From positions 1 to 17,720 of the forward strand of contig JAIRSN010000060.1 in the NCBI GenBank assembly GCA_031255425.1: a DNA stretch of 17,720 nt, given 5' to 3'. The notes beneath the pieces were generated by a model. It worked only from the letters and a program-made list of their open reading frames with translations. It made no database searches and was not told where the DNA came from. The position numbers and the translations under genes were made by a program. How positions within the stretch are numbered: the first letter of the stretch is position 1; the number at the start of each line of letters is the position of its first letter. Of the stretch, positions 2,682 through 12,235 are shown one piece after another. This stretch comes from Dysgonamonadaceae bacterium. Its GTDB lineage: Bacteria > Bacteroidota > Bacteroidia > Bacteroidales > Azobacteroidaceae.

Positions 2682-4145
2682 ATGAAATTAAGATTAGGTA
2701 AAAAGATGTTTTTCGCATCAGTGCTGCTGGTGCCTTTTATGACAAATGCGCAAAACGAGCAGGTTCCTCTCGAAATAACGTTGGAACGGGCGATTGAAAT
2801 TGCGCTGAACGAAAACCCTTCTGTTAAAATTGCCGATTTGGATGTGCAGAAAAAGAAGTATGCAAAAAAATCAAGCCAATCGGCGCTTTATCCGCAGATT
2901 GACGCCGTCGGGCAGTACAGCCGGACATTGAAAAAACAGGTGATGTATATGGGAGGGGACGACGACAATGCCGGAGGAAATTCGATGTTCGATCCGATTC
3001 TTATGGGGATGGAGGCGACGCTGGCTGAAACGAGCGGTTATGTGCCGGGAACTTTGTTCCAGAAGATTGCCGAAAATTCCGTTTCGAGCGGAGACGGAGG
3101 AATCACCATCGGGCGAAGCAACAACTGGTCGGGCGGATTTCAATTGAACTGGCCGGTCGTTGTTCCCACGCTTTGGAAAACGCTGGAAATCTCCAGTCTG
3201 GATACGGAATTGGCAGTAGAAAATGCCCGGTCGTCCAAAATCAATATGGTGAATGCGATCCGGAAAGCGTATTACGGTGCGCTTCTGGCGAAAGACGCCT
3301 TGCATGTACTCCGGCAGAGTTACGACAATGCCGTCCTGAGCTACGACAACATCAACGAGAAATACAAACAGGGTATTGTTTCCGAATTCGACCTGATTCG
3401 TGCAGACGTAAACGCCAAAAATATCAAGCCGAACCTGATTCAGGCGCAGAATGCGTACAACATCGCTTCGCTGTCGCTGAAAGCGCTTATGGGCGTCGAC
3501 ATTGATATGGAAATTTCGATAGACGGCAGCTTATTGGATTACGAAGAAGGTCTTTACGGCGAGATACTGAACGCCGACACTTCGCTGGTCTACAACTCTG
3601 ACCTGAAAAAATTCGACATTCAAAAAGAACAGTTGAAAAAGTCGATGGAACTCTATAAATCGCAGTATTATCCGACAATCGCCATTGCGGGTAATTTTAT
3701 GTATATGTCGATGAGCAACAATTTCAAATTCGGCGATTACCGGTGGAACCCCAGTTCGTCCGTCAGTTTGAATATCTCCATCCCGATTTTCGACGGATTG
3801 AAAAAACACAGTGAAATCCGGCAGACGAAAATCTCTATGGAAGAAATGGACTGGCAACGGGAAGATGTGGTACGGAATCTTAAATTGGCCGTAAACAATA
3901 ATATAAACAATATGGCGAATTATGTGGAACAAGTCTTTTCGACCAAAGATGTGATTGCGCAAGCACAGAAAGGATACGAAATTTCCCAGAAATTATACGA
4001 CACCGGTATGGGAACGCTGCTCGACCTGAACGATGCGCAGTTGGGATTAACGCAGGCAAGCCTGGCATTCAATCAGGCGATATACAATTTCCTCGCCGCC
4101 AAAGCAGATTTGGACAAAACACTGGGCGTAGACGTAAACCGGTAA
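2682..4145 (+). CDS. TolC-family outer-membrane efflux protein
   Basis: This 487-aa protein opens with a Sec signal peptide (about residues 1-23, ending TNAQ). The mature part carries two outer membrane efflux protein repeats: about residues 30-255 (LERAIEIALNENPSVKIADLDV, SALYPQIDAVGQYSR) and about 295-480 (SQYYPTIAIAGNF, SVSLNISIPIFDG, ending NFLAAKADLDKTLGV). TolC-type proteins trimerise into a beta-barrel with a long periplasmic helical tunnel and form the exit duct of tripartite pumps. Length and layout fit the family. It is the first structural gene after the regulator and precedes the adaptor and pump genes, the common order in Bacteroidota. Substrate choice lies mainly with the pump, not this component. 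Confidence 0.93.
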   Translation: MKLRLGKKMFFASVLLVPFMTNAQNEQVPLEITLERAIEIALNENPSVKIADLDVQKKKYAKKSSQSALYPQIDAVGQYSRTLKKQVMYMGGDDDNAGGNSMFDPILMGMEATLAETSGYVPGTLFQKIAENSVSSGDGGITIGRSNNWSGGFQLNWPVVVPTLWKTLEISSLDTELAVENARSSKINMVNAIRKAYYGALLAKDALHVLRQSYDNAVLSYDNINEKYKQGIVSEFDLIRADVNAKNIKPNLIQAQNAYNIASLSLKALMGVDIDMEISIDGSLLDYEEGLYGEILNADTSLVYNSDLKKFDIQKEQLKKSMELYKSQYYPTIAIAGNFMYMSMSNNFKFGDYRWNPSSSVSLNISIPIFDGLKKHSEIRQTKISMEEMDWQREDVVRNLKLAVNNNINNMANYVEQVFSTKDVIAQAQKGYEISQKLYDTGMGTLLDLNDAQLGLTQASLAFNQAIYNFLAAKADLDKTLGVDVNR

Positions 4146-4273: not shown

Positions 4274-5281
4274 ATGAAAACTAAAAAACTGATTAAATTA
4301 TTACCTCTTTTGAGTTTAGGGATTTTGATCTCCTGCGGGGAAAAAACGCAGGAAACTTCTCCGGAAGATGCAAAAGTCAAAGTGAGTACGACGGTGGCAA
4401 CGATGCAGACGGTGGATAACATTTCCGGCTACACGGCAAATGTTCAGGCGGATGTGATCAATCATATCACACCGGCAATCCCGGCGCGAATCGAAAAGAT
4501 TTACGTGGAAATCGGCGACAGGGTGAATGTCGGACAATTACTGGTGCAAATGGAATCGTCCAACCTGCAACAGCAAAATGCTCAACTCGCCAATCTGGAA
4601 CGCGATTATGCCCGCTACACCGAACTGTTGAAAGTCGGTGGGATTGCCCAGCAACAGGTAGACCAGATGAAAACGCAAATCGATATTTTGAAGGCAGCCA
4701 TCAAAAATATACGGGACAATACGCAGTTGAGAAGCCCGATCAACGGAATCGTGACGGCACGGAACTACGACAACGGCGATGTTTTCGCGCAGTTGCCGGT
4801 ACTGACCGTTCAACAATTGAATCCGTTGAAAGCCATCATCAATGTGTCGGAAACCGATTTCACAAAGGTAAAACTCGGAATGCCTGCTAATATCAAGCTG
4901 GATGTGTACGAAAATGAAAGTTTTACCGGAAAGGTGAGCTTGGTTTATCCCACCATTGATGCGGCGACGCATACGTTCGGCGTAGAGGTGGCAATCCACA
5001 ACAAAGACGCAAAAGTGCGCCCGGGAATGTATGCCCGCGTGGAACTGAACTTCGGATCAAAGCAAAGCATTGTTGTTCCGGATATGGCAGTCCAAAAACA
5101 GGCGGGGTCGAACGACAAATACGTTTACATCGTGGAAAGCGGTCTTGCCAAATACCGTAAGGTAGAGCTTGGGCTGCGGCTGGGCGCCAACTACGAAATC
5201 CTTTCCGGTATAAATCCGGGAGATGAAGTGGTGACGGCGGGGCAAAGCCGCCTGATTGACGGCACCTCTGTTGAGAAATAA
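4274..5281 (+). CDS. RND efflux periplasmic adaptor (membrane-fusion protein), lipoprotein
   Basis: The product is 335 aa. A lipoprotein signal peptide ends in the lipobox LISC with the acylated Cys at residue 21, so the adaptor is anchored by lipid. HlyD/AcrA features follow in order: the first lipoyl half (HITPAIPARIEKIYVEIGDRV), a helical hairpin (about residues 95-150), the second lipoyl half (LRSPINGIVTARNYDNGDV), a beta-barrel domain (about 175-255, GMPANIKLDVYENESFTGKV) and a membrane-proximal domain ending GDEVVTAGQSRLIDG. It links the inner-membrane pump to the TolC-like duct. The 30-bp gap to the pump gene supports co-transcription. It is somewhat shorter than AcrA, mainly through a short helical hairpin. 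Confidence 0.93.
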   Translation: MKTKKLIKLLPLLSLGILISCGEKTQETSPEDAKVKVSTTVATMQTVDNISGYTANVQADVINHITPAIPARIEKIYVEIGDRVNVGQLLVQMESSNLQQQNAQLANLERDYARYTELLKVGGIAQQQVDQMKTQIDILKAAIKNIRDNTQLRSPINGIVTARNYDNGDVFAQLPVLTVQQLNPLKAIINVSETDFTKVKLGMPANIKLDVYENESFTGKVSLVYPTIDAATHTFGVEVAIHNKDAKVRPGMYARVELNFGSKQSIVVPDMAVQKQAGSNDKYVYIVESGLAKYRKVELGLRLGANYEILSGINPGDEVVTAGQSRLIDGTSVEK

Positions 5282-5311: not shown

Positions 5312-8300
5312 ATGAGTTTATATGAATCCGCGGTAAAAAAACCGATTACTACCGCTTTAATATTCGTCGGAGTCGCTATCATGGGATTATTTTCCCTGAC
5401 CCGGTTGCCGATCGATTTATTTCCCGATATAGAAGTTAACTCCCTGACCGTCATCACGGCTTATTCGGGCGCCAGCGCTTCGGACATCGAAACGAATGTC
5501 ACCCGGCCGATGGAAAATTCATTGAATACGGTCGAAAACCTGAAGAAGATAACTTCCCAATCCAAAGACAATATGTCGCTGGTTACGTTGGAGTTCAATT
5601 ACGGAACCGATATTAACCTCGCCACAAACGACGTGCGGGACAAAATCGATATGGTCAAGTCCCAGCTCCCCGATGATGTGAGCAATCCGATCATCTTCAA
5701 GTTCAGCATGGATATGATTCCGGTCGTTATTTATTCTGCCACGGCGGACGAGAGTGTCAACGCGCTGTATAAGATATTGGACGAAAAAGTCGCCAATCCG
5801 CTGAACCGGGTGGCAGGCGTGGGTGCGGTGACCGTTTCCGGAGCGCCGCAACGGCAGGTGCAGGTCAACGTTGCGCCCGAAAAGCTGGAAGCGTACAACC
5901 TGACGGTCGAGCAGATTTCCAATGTGATCCGGACGGAAAACCTGAACGTGCCGGCGGGAAGTTTCGACGTCGGAACGGCTACCTACGCGCTGCGGGTGGA
6001 AGGCGAATTTAAGGAAAGCGGTCAACTGGCGGGCATTGTCCTGGGCAGCCACAACGGGAAAAATATTTACCTGAAAGACGTGGCGACCGTCAGCGATACC
6101 ATCCAGAGCCGTATTCAGGAGTCTTTTACCAACGAGGTGAAAGGCGCTACGATTGTTGTCCAGAAGCAATCCGGATCCAATACGGTGGAGATTGCCCGGA
6201 AGGTAAACGAGTTGATTCCCGAACTGCAAAAAACACTTCCTCCCGATGTGAAACTCTCACTGATCATGGACTCTTCGGACTTTATCCAGGAATCCATCGA
6301 CTCGCTGGTTGAAACCATCCTGCTCGCCGGTATCTTCGTGATTATCGTCGTGCTGTTTTTCCTGGGACGCTGGCGCGCAACGGTGATTATCATCCTTGCA
6401 ATCCCGATTTCGCTGATCGCCTCTTTCATCTACCTGATGGCGACCGGAAGTACGCTGAACATTATATCGCTCTCCTCTATTTCCATCTCTATCGGGATGG
6501 TGGTCGACGACGCGATTGTGGTGCTGGAGAATATAACGAAGCATATCGAAAAGGGAAGTACGCCCAAAGAGGCCGCCGTGTATGCCACCAATGAGGTGGG
6601 GGTAGCGGTAATTGCTTCTTCGTTGACGATTATCGCCGTATTCTTCCCGCTCACCATGACCACCGGTCTGGCAGGGGTGATGTTCGGCGAATTGGGTTGG
6701 ATGGTCACCATCATGATCACGGTTTCCGTAATCGTAGCCTTGTCGCTGACCCCGATGCTCTGTTCGCAGATGCTCCGGTTGACCAACACGCAGGGGAAAC
6801 TGTTCGACCGGCTGTATGCACCGGTCCGCAGGATGCTCGACAAACTGGATATTCTCTATGGCAAGTTCGTGAATATCTGCGTAAGGAACCGCTGGAAAAC
6901 ATTATTGGTCTGTTTCTCCATCTTTTTCATCATCATGGTACCTGCCCTCAACCTGGTGAAGTTCGACTTTATGCCGGCTTCCGACAACAGCATGATCACG
7001 GCTTCCGTTCACCTTCCCACCGGCACCCGGATGGAAGTGGCACGCGAAACCGCCATGAAAATCACCCAAATGGTGCAGGCGAAGTATGGAAAAGAGGTCA
7101 ATATCCGCAGCTTTTCCGTCGGGCAGGCGGACGAAAACAACTCTTTCGCCGCTATGCAGGAAAACGGGACCAACCTGATTACATTCCGTTTCCGTTGTGT
7201 CGATGCCGACGCGAGAAAGCTGACCATTTATGATATTGCCGACGGCATACGAAAGGAACTGGAAACGATGCCGGAACTCTACAAATATACCGTGACTCCC
7301 GGTGGCGGTGGCGGTATGGGTACCGGAGCCAGTACGGTTGACGTGGAAATTTACGGCTACGACCTGGCGCTGACCGACCGGATTGCCGACGAAATGAAGC
7401 TCCGGCTGGCGTCTGTCAACGGGTTGCGCGACATCGTGATCAGCCGGCAGGACTACCGCACGGAATACCAGATCGACTTCGACCGGGTGAAACTTGCCGA
7501 AAACGGGCTGAACTCCGCCACGGTAGCCACCTACGTCCGCGACCGGATCAACGGGGAGTATACTTCCAAGTACCGGGAAGACGGCGACGAATACGATATT
7601 GTGGTTCGGTACGACGAGGCTTACCGCCAGTCGCTGGAGGACATCCGGAACATTACGGTTTACAACAATGCCGGCGCCCCGATCCGTATCCGCGAACTTG
7701 GAACGATTGTCGAAAAGACATCCCTCCCGCAAATCGACCGGCAAAACCGCCAGCGTATCAACAAGGTGCAAGGTTCTCTGTATAAGGCAGCCTTGAGTGA
7801 TGTGATTGCCGGTGCCAACGGCGTGATAAACGAAATGCAGGAGGAAGGGAAGATTCCACCTGAGATCGGCATCAAAATCGGCGGGTCGTACGAAGACCAG
7901 CAGGAAACAAACAACGACTTGATGCTGTTGATGGTGCTTTGCGTGGTACTGGTCTACATCGTGATGGCGGCGCAGTTCGAATCGCTCACCTATCCGTTTA
8001 TCATTGTCCTGTCGCTGCTGTTCGGTTTGGCAGGTGTATTCCTGGCGCTGATGATCACCGGGAAATCCATGAGCCTGATGGCGATGATCGGCCTGGTCAT
8101 GCTGATTGGTATCGTGGTGAAAAACGGAATTGTGTTTATCGACTACGCCAACCTGAACCGCGAACGCGGCATGTCGATCGACAAAGCCATTGTTTCCGCC
8201 GGAAGATCCCGTCTGCGTCCCATCCTGATGACTACGGCGACGACCGTCCTGGGGATGATTCCGATGGCTATCCCCCGGGGAGCCGGGTCGGAGATGTGGC

Positions 8301-8443
8301 AGCCGATGGGGATCACCATTGTCGGCGGGCTAACGCTGTCGACGTTGCTGACCTTGTTTTACGTTCCGGCGCTCTACTCCATTTTCGGAGGAAACGGCGT
8401 GAAAAGGAAAAGAAAAAAATACAGACAATCCTATCATTCTTAA
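5312..8443 (+). CDS. RND efflux pump inner-membrane permease, HAE1 type
   Basis: This 1043-aa protein is full length for AcrB-like pumps. It has a first membrane helix at about residues 12-30, then a large periplasmic loop (about 35-330) beginning PIDLFPDIEVNSLTVITAYSGA. Helices from about 335 to 540 contain GMVVDDAIVVLEN, with the proton-relay Asp399 and Asp400. A second periplasmic loop runs from about 560 to 865, followed by the final helices. The latter contain GIVVKNGIVFIDYAN, where Lys937 matches AcrB Lys940. The adjacent DD pair points to the hydrophobe/amphiphile (HAE1) group rather than CusA-type metal pumps, which carry a single Asp there. A glycine-rich stretch (GGGGGMGTGAST) lies near residue 665. 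The pump is proton-driven and expels drugs, bile salts or detergents in relatives. The specific substrate is unknown. Confidence 0.95.
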   Translation: MSLYESAVKKPITTALIFVGVAIMGLFSLTRLPIDLFPDIEVNSLTVITAYSGASASDIETNVTRPMENSLNTVENLKKITSQSKDNMSLVTLEFNYGTDINLATNDVRDKIDMVKSQLPDDVSNPIIFKFSMDMIPVVIYSATADESVNALYKILDEKVANPLNRVAGVGAVTVSGAPQRQVQVNVAPEKLEAYNLTVEQISNVIRTENLNVPAGSFDVGTATYALRVEGEFKESGQLAGIVLGSHNGKNIYLKDVATVSDTIQSRIQESFTNEVKGATIVVQKQSGSNTVEIARKVNELIPELQKTLPPDVKLSLIMDSSDFIQESIDSLVETILLAGIFVIIVVLFFLGRWRATVIIILAIPISLIASFIYLMATGSTLNIISLSSISISIGMVVDDAIVVLENITKHIEKGSTPKEAAVYATNEVGVAVIASSLTIIAVFFPLTMTTGLAGVMFGELGWMVTIMITVSVIVALSLTPMLCSQMLRLTNTQGKLFDRLYAPVRRMLDKLDILYGKFVNICVRNRWKTLLVCFSIFFIIMVPALNLVKFDFMPASDNSMITASVHLPTGTRMEVARETAMKITQMVQAKYGKEVNIRSFSVGQADENNSFAAMQENGTNLITFRFRCVDADARKLTIYDIADGIRKELETMPELYKYTVTPGGGGGMGTGASTVDVEIYGYDLALTDRIADEMKLRLASVNGLRDIVISRQDYRTEYQIDFDRVKLAENGLNSATVATYVRDRINGEYTSKYREDGDEYDIVVRYDEAYRQSLEDIRNITVYNNAGAPIRIRELGTIVEKTSLPQIDRQNRQRINKVQGSLYKAALSDVIAGANGVINEMQEEGKIPPEIGIKIGGSYEDQQETNNDLMLLMVLCVVLVYIVMAAQFESLTYPFIIVLSLLFGLAGVFLALMITGKSMSLMAMIGLVMLIGIVVKNGIVFIDYANLNRERGMSIDKAIVSAGRSRLRPILMTTATTVLGMIPMAIPRGAGSEMWQPMGITIVGGLTLSTLLTLFYVPALYSIFGGNGVKRKRKKYRQSYHS

Positions 8444-8457
8444 TTCATAATATATAT

Positions 8458-8751
8458 ATGAAAGCAGTATTTATTCCCTACAATCAAGCCTATAAAGACC
8501 GGTTGATTGTCATCTTAGATAAAATGAATATCCGGGGTTTCACTCTCTGGGAACAAGTGCAGGGCAGAGGCAGCGAGCAGGGCGATCCGCATTACGGAAA
8601 CCACGCCTGGCCTACCATGAACTCCTCCATCCTCACCGTAATCCCCGACCATAAAGTGGACGATTTACTGGAAAAAATCCACGAAATGGACATGGAAACC
8701 GAAATGCAGGGCATCCGTGCCTTTGTGTGGGAGGTGGAAAAGGCGGTGTAA
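8458..8751 (+). CDS. Small PII-like protein at the end of the RND operon
   Basis: The product is 97 aa, with its ATG 14 bp after the pump stop codon. The pattern is ferredoxin-like beta-alpha-beta-beta-alpha-beta, as in PII proteins: MKAVFIPYNQAYKDRLIVILDKMNIRGFTLWEQVQGRG, then a short loop (SEQGDPHYGNHAWP), then SSILTVIPDHKVDDLLEKI and a closing strand GIRAFVWEVEKAV. It is shorter than GlnB/GlnK (112 aa). The canonical T-loop, with its uridylylated Tyr, is replaced by a compact loop carrying His45 and His49. PII-like proteins have been described next to RND efflux genes in other phyla, mostly metal pumps. Here the neighbour is an HAE1 pump. A sensor or modulator of efflux, reading a nucleotide or metal, is plausible but is inference. 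The terminator follows directly, so it belongs to this operon. Confidence 0.75.
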   Translation: MKAVFIPYNQAYKDRLIVILDKMNIRGFTLWEQVQGRGSEQGDPHYGNHAWPTMNSSILTVIPDHKVDDLLEKIHEMDMETEMQGIRAFVWEVEKAV

Positions 8752-8774
8752 GCAGGTAATTGCAACGAAAAGAA

Positions 8775-8818
8775 GATCCTCCGTACCCGGGCTGCCCGGG
8801 CTGCGGGGGATTTTTTTT
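8775..8818 (+). terminator. Strong rho-independent terminator of the efflux operon
   Basis: GATCCTCCG (8775-8783) pairs with CGGGGGAT and the next T (8804-8812), allowing G-U pairs. Inside it, CCCGGG-CTG-CCCGGG (8786-8800) forms a second stem. Eight Ts follow at 8811-8818. It lies 24 bp after the PII-like stop codon and marks the end of the five-gene unit. Confidence 0.9.
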
Positions 8819-8881: not shown

Positions 8882-8923
8882 CGTTTTCCATTTTCCTGGA
8901 AAACGTGAATAGAACTCCGGGAC
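8882..8923 (-). repeat. 42-bp palindromic repeat unit, copy 1 (inverted)
   Basis: Read on the minus strand it begins GTCCCGGAGTTCTATTCACG and ends in the hairpin CGTTTTCCA/TGGAAAACG, whose plus-strand arms are 8882-8890 and 8897-8905. It is the inverted counterpart of the copies at 9022 and 9064 and abuts the MITE-like element. Confidence 0.75.
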
Positions 8924-8924
8924 A

Positions 8925-9021
8925 GGGGCTGACTAAAAAGTCGGTATTTCCCCAAAACATCCTATCTACAGGCTCTGTGAGGAGGGTGAAATTTGCTTTT
9001 TGAGACTTTTTAGCCAGCCCC
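8925..9021. mobile_element. 97-bp MITE-like element with IS1182-type ends
   Basis: The left terminus GGGGCTGACTAAAAAGTC (8925-8942) is the near-perfect inverse of the right terminus GACTTTTTAGCCAGCCCC (9004-9021), with one mismatch in 18. The left terminus is identical over all 18 bases to the left end of the IS1182-like element at 17368-17385. The 61-bp interior has no ORF and does not match the IS interior. This fits a non-autonomous derivative that the IS transposase could move. No obvious direct target duplication is visible. Confidence 0.75.
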
Positions 9022-9063
9022 GTCCCGGAGTCTTATTCACGTTTGCCATTGTATGTGGCAAAC
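9022..9063 (+). repeat. 42-bp palindromic repeat unit, copy 2
   Basis: The unit begins GTCCCGGAGTCTTATTCACG and closes with a hairpin whose arms ACGTTTGCCA (9039-9048) and TGGCAAACGT (9056-9065) pair perfectly over 10 bp around a 7-nt loop. It follows the MITE-like element directly and is tandem with copy 3. Confidence 0.8.
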
Positions 9064-9104
9064 GTCCCGGAGTCTTATTTACGCTTGCCATTGTGTGTGG
9101 AAAA
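9064..9104 (+). repeat. 42-bp palindromic repeat unit, copy 3
   Basis: This direct tandem copy of the preceding unit begins GTCCCGGAGTCTTATTTACG (19 of 20 identical). Its hairpin part is decayed (CTTGCCATTGTGTGTGGAAAA), so it no longer pairs well. Confidence 0.75.
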
Positions 9105-10027: not shown

Positions 10028-12235
10028 TCAAAACAGGCTCCATGCGACGGTCATACCCGCCATGATAATGGCGACCATGCTCATGAGCTTAATCAGGATG
10101 TTCAGGCTTGGGCCGGAGGTATCTTTGAAAGGATCGCCTACGGTGTCGCCTACGACAGTCGCCTTGTGGCAGTCCGAACCTTTGCCGCCGTGGTTCCCTT
10201 CTTCGATAAACTTCTTGGCATTGTCCCAGGCGCCACCGGCGTTAGCCATAAAGATGGCAAGGATAAAGCCGGTGCTTAATCCGCCCACCAGAAGTCCCAT
10301 AACTCCGGTTACACCAAAGATCCAACCGACGGCTACCGGCGTGACAATCGCCAGAATGGAAGGAAGTATCATCTCCCGCTGCGCGCCCTTGGTTGAGATT
10401 TCGACGCAACGCGCGTAATCCGGTTCGGCTTCTCCCGTCATGATTCCTTTGATGGTACGGAATTGCCGGCGCACTTCTTCGACCATGCTCCCGGCAGCGC
10501 GCCCTACGGCGTTCATCGTCAATCCACAGAAAAGGAAAGCCATCATCGAACCGATAAACATTCCCGATAAAACCTTGGGATTCATCAGCGTTACATCGTA
10601 ATGAACCATGAAATCGACGAAGCTTGCCTTCGCGGTTTCTATCGTTTGCCCGCCGACATCCATGCTTGTTTGCCCGATGCGGATCAATCCGATCTTTAAT
10701 TCTTCTACATAAGAGGCGAGTAAAGCCAAACCGGTCAAGGCTGCCGAACCGATGGCGAACCCTTTGCCGGTGGCGGCAGTTGTGTTGCCCAAGGAGTCGA
10801 GCGCATCCGTCCGTTTACGCACTTCTTTGCCCAGTCCGCTCATTTCTGCATTTCCGCCTGCATTGTCGGCAATCGGACCGTAAGCGTCGGTCGCCAGCGT
10901 GATGCCCAACGTCGAAAGCATCCCGACCGCAGCAATGCCGATGCCGTACAAGCCCATTCCTACATTGTTGAAATCGAAGCCGGAAGCAAACAGGAAAGAC
11001 GCAATAACGCCCACCACAACGGCGATAACAGGAATGGCGGTCGACATCATACCCAGTCCCAATCCCGAAATGATTACGGTAGCGGGTCCCGTCAGGCCTG
11101 AATTGGCCACCTTTTTCGTGGGATTATACGACTGGGAAGTGAAATATTCCGTCGCCTGACCGATTACAATACCGACCAGCAAGCCCACAATCACCGAGCA
11201 GGAAATCCATACCCAGTTTTCCAGTTGCAACCAGTACATAATGCCGAAGGTTGCCGCAACGATTAGCGCCGAACTGAGGTTCGTGCCGAGAGAAAGCGAC
11301 CGCAGCAGGTTCTTTATCGACGCATTTTCTTTTGTCCGGACGGAAAAGATACCGATGATCGACAGGATAATGCCGACCGCCGCAATCAACATGGGAGCGA
11401 TAACTGCCTTGTATTGAGCTTCTACATTGCCCGATCCGGCGAATGCGGCAGCGCCCAGGGCAGCCGTCGCCAGTATCGAACCGCAATACGATTCGTAGAG
11501 GTCGGCGCCCATTCCCGCTACGTCGCCCACGTTATCGCCTACATTATCGGCAATCGTTGCAGGGTTGCGGGGGTCGTCTTCCGGAATACCGGCTTCCACC
11601 TTACCGACCAGGTCGGCGCCCACGTCGGCCGCTTTGGTGTAAATACCGCCTCCGACACGGGCAAAAAGCGCCTGCGTGGAAGCTCCCATACCAAACGTCA
11701 ACATGGTTGTCGTAATAATTGTCAGCTTGTGCATGTCGTTGATCGATTCCGCCGGAATAATCCAGTTGAGGAAGATATACCACCCCGAAATGTCCAGCAG
11801 TCCCAAGCCCACAACGACCAGTCCCATCACTGCGCCGCTCCGGAAAGCGACCTGAAGCCCTTGATTCAACGACTTCTCTGCGGCATGGGCGGTCCGGGCG
11901 GAGGCATACGTCGCGGTTTTCATCCCCAAAAATCCGGCTAACCCGGAAAAGAAACCGCCGGTCAGAAACGCAAACGGCACCCAATGGTTCTGCAAATCAA
12001 AACCGAAGGCCATAATCGAAAAAAGAATGACCAGCACGAGAAACACAATCCCTACAACTTTGTACTGCTGCCGAAGGTAAGACATAGCGCCTACCCGTAC
12101 ATGTTGCGCTATCTTTTTCATTAAATCGCTTCCCTCCTCTTTTTTCAGCATCCATTTGTAAAAATAAAACGCGAATCCGAGCGCTAACACGGAAGCGACC
12201 GGAACAATCCCAAAAATGGGCGAAATAGTATTCAT
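10028..12235 (-). CDS. hppA: Membrane-bound pyrophosphatase, K+-dependent, ion-pumping
   Basis: This 735-aa polytopic protein couples hydrolysis of pyrophosphate to Na+ and/or H+ export across the inner membrane. The signature motifs are present: [20 protein letters not shown] (from residue 204) and [20 protein letters not shown] (from 230), which bind Mg-PPi and line the ion gate (Glu248). The [10 protein letters not shown] motif has Ala487 and Gly490, the residue pair typical of K+-dependent enzymes; K+-independent ones have Lys and Thr. Bacteroides relatives include Na+-pumping and dual Na+/H+-pumping forms, so Na+ transport is likely but not proven by sequence. The gene has its own promoter box at 12269-12276, and a perfect hairpin follows it. 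Confidence 0.96.

Follow-up and report, generated by a model that had tools for sequence, protein, structure and literature searches.

What could a small PII-like protein do when its gene stands directly behind that of an efflux pump? The question is raised by a 97-amino-acid open reading frame in a 17,720-nucleotide stretch from the genome of a gut-type member of the Bacteroidales, a Dysgonamonadaceae bacterium (assembly GCA_031255425.1, contig JAIRSN010000060.1), here called the window. The PII-transporter pairs named in the accessible part of a review, AmtB, NrtABCD, UrtABCDE and SbtA, all serve uptake, and AcrZ, YajC and WatS1, the RND regulators described in the accessible text, are small proteins (PMC10710835). 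The explanation that we consider best as a whole, with the chances for and against it about balanced, is that a PII-like trimer would dock on the pump and tune efflux in response to a ligand.

The gene and its operon

The gene lies at positions 8458 to 8751 of the forward strand and was recognized by the ORF list, Pfam, NCBIfam, the homologue search and structure prediction. It is preceded on the same strand by genes for a TetR-type regulator (about 2015 to 2629, Pfam TetR_N, 2015 being the first ATG in frame), a TolC-like outer-membrane factor (2682 to 4145, Pfam OEP), a periplasmic adaptor (4274 to 5281, RND_mfp above its cut-off) and an RND pump (5312 to 8443, by ORF, Pfam, NCBIfam and alignment), an order on which the ORF list and the Pfam and NCBIfam scans agree. 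The initial annotation had called it the last gene of the operon, and this position was borne out: it starts with ATG 14 bp past the pump stop at 8443 and is followed on the forward strand, at 8770 to 8817, by a terminator-like hairpin with a U tract, whose folding energy of −33.4 kcal/mol (z −5.35) was equalled by none of 200 shuffled sequences. A simple consensus terminator scan of the window did not list this hairpin. The PII-fold protein would be made together with the pump from one operon.

Two other features lie downstream. Within positions 8897 to 9104, near-perfect terminal inverted repeats enclose an element of 97-98 bp (8925 to 9021), which is 91-96% alike at five other places of the genome and sits within 42-bp repeats; the whole 8897 to 9104 stretch has 39 matches in its own assembly, itself included. 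The element has the look of a small mobile element of the inverted-repeat kind. Farther on, the opposite strand encodes a membrane H+ pyrophosphatase (10028 to 12235).

Family membership and predicted fold

The protein scored 122.9 bits against NCBIfam NF045581, "PG0541 family transporter-associated protein" (cut-off 45), and 34.9 bits against Pfam P-II (cut-off 25), and it has 358 homologues at E ≤ 1e-3, which makes the frame more than a chance ORF. Judged by its profile score it is a member of the PG0541 family and, as the family name implies, an RND pump lies directly 5' of it. With this membership, the family and its transporter link are already named by RefSeq; the name carries no mechanism. 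A RefSeq relative from Bacteroides finegoldii has the gene order of the window (TetR, TolC, adaptor, RND permease, PG0541), and we see no essential differences between NF045581 and the window gene. The gene is real, and its annotation is ordinary; its interest lies in a plausible role as PII regulator of an efflux pump.

The literature search, to which subscription papers were mostly closed, found no functional study of the PG0541 family. In the accessible portions of earlier reports, a table of 2007 gives PG0541 as one of the proteins restricted to Bacteroidales or neighbouring groups (PMC1887533), it is listed among genes raised after rat-mouth inoculation, and the adjacent loci PG_0538 and PG_0539 appear as possible drug targets, PG_0539 being linked to efflux (PMC12382797). 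According to an extract of a further report, a fragilis efflux system is TetR-controlled (PMC4790292); this system and XepCAB are likened here to the window operon by description, either being a possible orthologue.

The PII-like ferredoxin pattern claimed at the outset could be placed in a structure: single-chain prediction gave a PII fold, which assigns the protein to the PII superfamily and not to an unrelated fold. The protein is presumably a cytosolic trimer. In the assembly of the window (2.0 Mb, 77% complete) it is the sole Pfam P-II match, and a canonical GlnB or GlnK was not found there.

Pairing with one pump clade

Of 198 genomes in the order, 92 encode a protein that scores above the family cut-off, as do 19 of 395 in the phylum and 40 of 197 in the class to which genome G294 belongs; a second subfamily, Sb, includes Ignavibacteriota proteins. 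Gut commensals such as Parabacteroides distasonis have the operon. Pumps were searched in 36 genomes picked from these three sets. All 13 genomes with the PII-like gene encode a pump at least 37% identical to that of the window; among the 23 without it, the best match was 24-31% identical in 21, there was none in one, and one (G424) has a pump of 60% identity (L148), the gene next to which looks like an ABC ATPase.

The survey of neighbours placed an RND pump beside the gene nearly everywhere, as opposed to a gene mostly without RND neighbours. The pump lies 5' on the same strand in 46 of 46 loci above the cut-off with returned sequence, a few with an intervening ORF. It is directly 5' in 78 of 80 named loci, which are the best 80 of 509 confirmed relatives from a contig scan and are therefore dominated by close relatives; gaps range from −4 to 171 bp (median 22.5), 11 of the 78 show a 4-bp overlap of the two genes, and in the two remaining loci the contig stops at a distance of 49 and 65 bp. 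Weak profile matches were considered as further pump partners and rejected: within about 1.5 kb either side of 11 loci below the cut-off (L020-L030), no window-like RND pump was found. These loci look partly SbtB- or CPII-like. By eye, the PII-like genes of six of them (L020, L022, L024, L025, L028, L030) resemble SbtB beside SbtA-like membrane proteins.

For the pump tree, pumps shorter than 980 residues were left out (194 reduced to 184) and identical ones dropped (145 reduced to 142 among those with the PII-like gene), leaving 181 sequences. Five of the 145 full-length pumps (L176, L180, L209, L213, L214) were labelled by hand as having the PII-like gene, because it was missed by the distance or E-value limit of the script; a PII ORF is visible behind all five. 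One clade with support 1.0 unites 128 main and 7 subfamily Sa pumps that have the PII-like gene, its sole member without the gene being L148. The 7 Sb pumps form a separate clade whose placement is poorly supported. We read the clade of main and Sa pumps as one old pairing with one probable loss, as far as the tree can tell.

The near-constant adjacency suggests regulation by binding to the pump. The product could also be a soluble sensor that is co-produced with the pump but has another target, such as the TetR repressor or a metabolic enzyme, so that it would adjust transcription or metabolism and not the pump. PII proteins have soluble targets, and PII complexes with PipX, DraG and acetylglutamate kinase are among the structure matches of the window protein. 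Where the upstream sequence extends over at least 6.7 kb (61 loci), pump and adaptor are present in every case, an outer-membrane factor in 58 and a window-like TetR gene in 47; TetR is thus a usual member of the operon, but it is missing from 14 loci that keep the PII-like gene, whereas the pump is missing from none. Across 53 loci, PII distances correlate with pump distances at 0.80 and with adaptor distances at 0.81, and the partial correlations are 0.21 for the pump, 0.25 for the adaptor, 0.16 for the outer-membrane factor and 0.00 for TetR. On these counts we regard a target away from the pump as unlikely. The outer-membrane gene is 31 to 74% identical to that of the window across loci, which is consistent with its replacement. 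At L066, L068, L070-L073, L085 and others, the outer-membrane factor is 31-36% like that of the window and pump and adaptor are 65-79% alike; the sequences suggest that the factor gene was swapped at these loci. What is new here is the near-constant pairing with one pump clade, around which the TetR and outer-membrane genes vary.

Type of the pump

The Asp399-Asp400 pair that the initial annotation had reported for the pump was confirmed in TM4 by alignment, together with Lys937; Asp400 and Lys937 form a putative proton relay. The HAE1 type derived from this pair stands in part. The Asp pair fits, but the pump reaches the curated cut-off of none of the NCBIfam RND models that it matched: 526.3 against TIGR00915 (cut-off 940.35), 774.5 against NF033617 (1250) and 445.7 against TIGR00914 (701.45). 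CusA/CzcA is not the top-scoring subfamily model. The pairing had also been called unusual. Within the family it is not, since all 128 main-clade pumps have the Asp-Asp pair and RefSeq already calls an RND-adjoining relative transporter-associated. In the seven sister pumps of subfamily Sa (L208-L214), Asn occupies the positions of Asp400 and Lys937, and the PII-like gene is kept nonetheless.

T-loop and ligand pocket

Comparison with E. coli GlnK is based on a weak HMMER alignment (E 0.24). In this alignment, the T-loop of the window protein, described beforehand as shortened and carrying His45 and His49, is indeed 3-4 residues shorter, and both histidines are present. Pro52 stands opposite Tyr51, which we take to be the uridylylation site of GlnK, and Asn48 opposite Arg47. 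Likewise, in the same weak alignment, Gln84-Gly85-Ile86-Arg87 stands opposite Gly87-Asp88-Gly89-Lys90 (GDGK, in our understanding the B-loop), and the protein ends at about GlnK position 100, before Arg101 and Arg103, presumably the C-loop arginines. Motif scans found neither the uridylylation motif around Tyr51 nor the B-loop motif G[DY]G[KR] in any of 137 family proteins.

The T-loop of the family has a character of its own. It spans codons 36-55 (GRG...GDPHYGNHAWPTMN; 8563 to 8622, forward strand) and is a low-confidence loop in the predicted structure. Among main proteins its mean entropy of 0.99 bits is the lowest of six segments (1.37-1.84 in the five others), and it ranks third in conservation among 77 stretches of equal length. 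Among the proteins that the script took, the motif aromatic-Pro-x-x-Asn/Cys occurs in 122 of 126 main proteins (at least one of which is a cut frame) and in every one of the 4 Sa and the 7 Sb proteins; three Sa proteins outside this count carry it, too.

The histidines of this loop had been associated with a metal signal, and the protein might accordingly serve the pump as sensor or chaperone of a metal. Such a role has been suggested for PII-NG proteins next to CzcABC, CutA1 binds copper, and His49 is invariant in 125 main-clade proteins. However, His45 is replaced by Arg in 23 of these 125, position 49 is taken by Arg in the Sb proteins and by Ala or Pro in those of Sa, the Asp-Asp pair is found in 128 of 128 main-clade pumps, and CusA/CzcA does not score best for the window pump. 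The metal site was lowered as a candidate for the first two of these reasons, and we consider a metal role via His45 and His49 quite improbable. Its precedent is in print: the earlier statement that PII-like proteins accompany RND metal pumps agrees with the accessible text of a report in which PII-NG proteins adjoin czcABC, for example Geobacter GSU2134 and others (PMC7726332). The window gene resembles PII-NG in being clustered with an RND operon and differs in its pump, which is of metal type for PII-NG and an Asp-Asp pump under the TIGR00914 cut-off in the window, a comparison made by gene context.

A partner that assists assembly or stability of the pump trimer without any ligand would account for the near-constant pairing and frequent gene overlap, and it agrees with the missing canonical ligand motifs in 137 of 137 proteins. 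We find this rather unlikely. All 125 main-clade proteins retain Gly27, Thr/Ser29, Gly85 and, at position 87, a basic residue, which suggests a pocket in use, and one pump (L148) lives without the PII-like protein. Because these residues are kept, a modified ligand pocket may remain; the canonical ATP/2-oxoglutarate site is not expected to read the ligand, and an adenine nucleotide is possible, as Gly27 and Thr/Ser29 are retained.

Search for an interface

An interface was sought in the cytoplasmic loops of the pump. Going by the usual RND topology, we assign pump residue 952 (codon at 8165 to 8167, forward strand) to the TM10-TM11 loop on the cytoplasmic side. This residue is Arg in all 128 main and all 7 Sa pumps and in 6 of the 7 Sb pumps (the remaining one has Lys), a total of 141 of 142 pumps with the PII-like gene, and in 1 of 38 paralogues without it; L148, outside the 38, has Arg as well. 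In further sets, which overlap the first in part, 62 of 63 loci with the gene (46 from genomes partly used before, 17 new) have Arg952, as do 4 of 60 pumps without it, 9 of these 60 having Lys. Taken together, 5 of 98 pumps without the gene have Arg952. Arg952 is the sharpest cytoplasmic correlate of PII presence in the compared sequences and a candidate contact only. Several periplasmic positions likewise track the PII-like gene, and the lineages are few.

Cytoplasmic loops showed no significant enrichment of PII-specific pump positions (shift fraction 0.17), with a mean divergence of 1.43 in cytoplasmic, 1.33 in periplasmic and 1.18 in membrane regions, which had been delimited manually by hydropathy and the usual RND topology. 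In mutual information between pump and PII (125 pairs, effective number 66), cytoplasmic positions contributed 13-15% of the 30 to 200 highest-ranking pairs against 12.4% of columns; for the membrane the share was 28-32% against 21.5%. Two other candidates were dropped. The basic C-terminal tail of the pump (its net charge has a median of 7 for main-clade pumps versus 2 for pumps without the PII-like gene) is unspecific as a docking site, since L148 has charge 5 and Sa pumps 1, and His411 occurs also in related pumps that lack the gene, L159, L160, L240 and L244 among them. The evidence for the pairing is strong and that for an interface weak. Because the enrichment was not significant, mutual information gave no clear signal and periplasmic positions behave alike, we see direct docking as an even call.

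Proposed mechanism and known systems

Our proposal builds on the computed PII fold, operon position, pairing with one clade, missing canonical signalling residues and conserved family T-loop; the coupling of efflux to a ligand we infer. The PII trimer would dock on the pump trimer from the side of the cytoplasm, where the T-loops might reach the cytoplasmic loops of the pump with Arg952 as candidate contact, and, depending on a bound small ligand, it would raise or lower efflux. This would move the principle of GlnK-AmtB and SbtB-SbtA to an efflux pump. In a more specific form of the idea, which is somewhat less probable than not, a dedicated trimer would cover a multidrug-type RND pump on its cytoplasmic side and gate it in answer to a small ligand, with a T-loop code (aromatic-Pro-x-x-Asn) matched to the pump; tripartite efflux would then be controlled post-translationally by a PII protein.

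Known PII systems differ from the one in the window. GlnK has the Tyr51 motif, the GDGK B-loop and the C-loop arginines that the window protein lacks, and its partner AmtB is an ammonium channel instead of an efflux pump. In contrast to SbtB/SbtA and CPII, no bicarbonate transporter adjoins the window gene. The DUF3240 family has a PII-like fold by structure match, but the window protein had no match to its Pfam model at E ≤ 1, and the one DUF3240 example that was translated is without the aromatic-Pro-x-x-Asn motif of the PG0541 family. On a Thiodictyon plasmid (L256, 6403 to 6729), a DUF3240 gene is second behind a CusA/CzcA pump gene; the plasmid search gave two records of DUF3240 relatives, a number too small for a survey. 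According to an extract of its description, an island of H. pylori that encodes a cobalt-zinc-cadmium resistance protein contains DUF3240 as well (PMC8935386).

The named PG0541 family is directly testable, because a single operon encodes both partners and each can readily be deleted or co-purified. If the family does gate its efflux pump, many Bacteroidales would have their efflux controlled directly, at the protein level, by a cellular signal.
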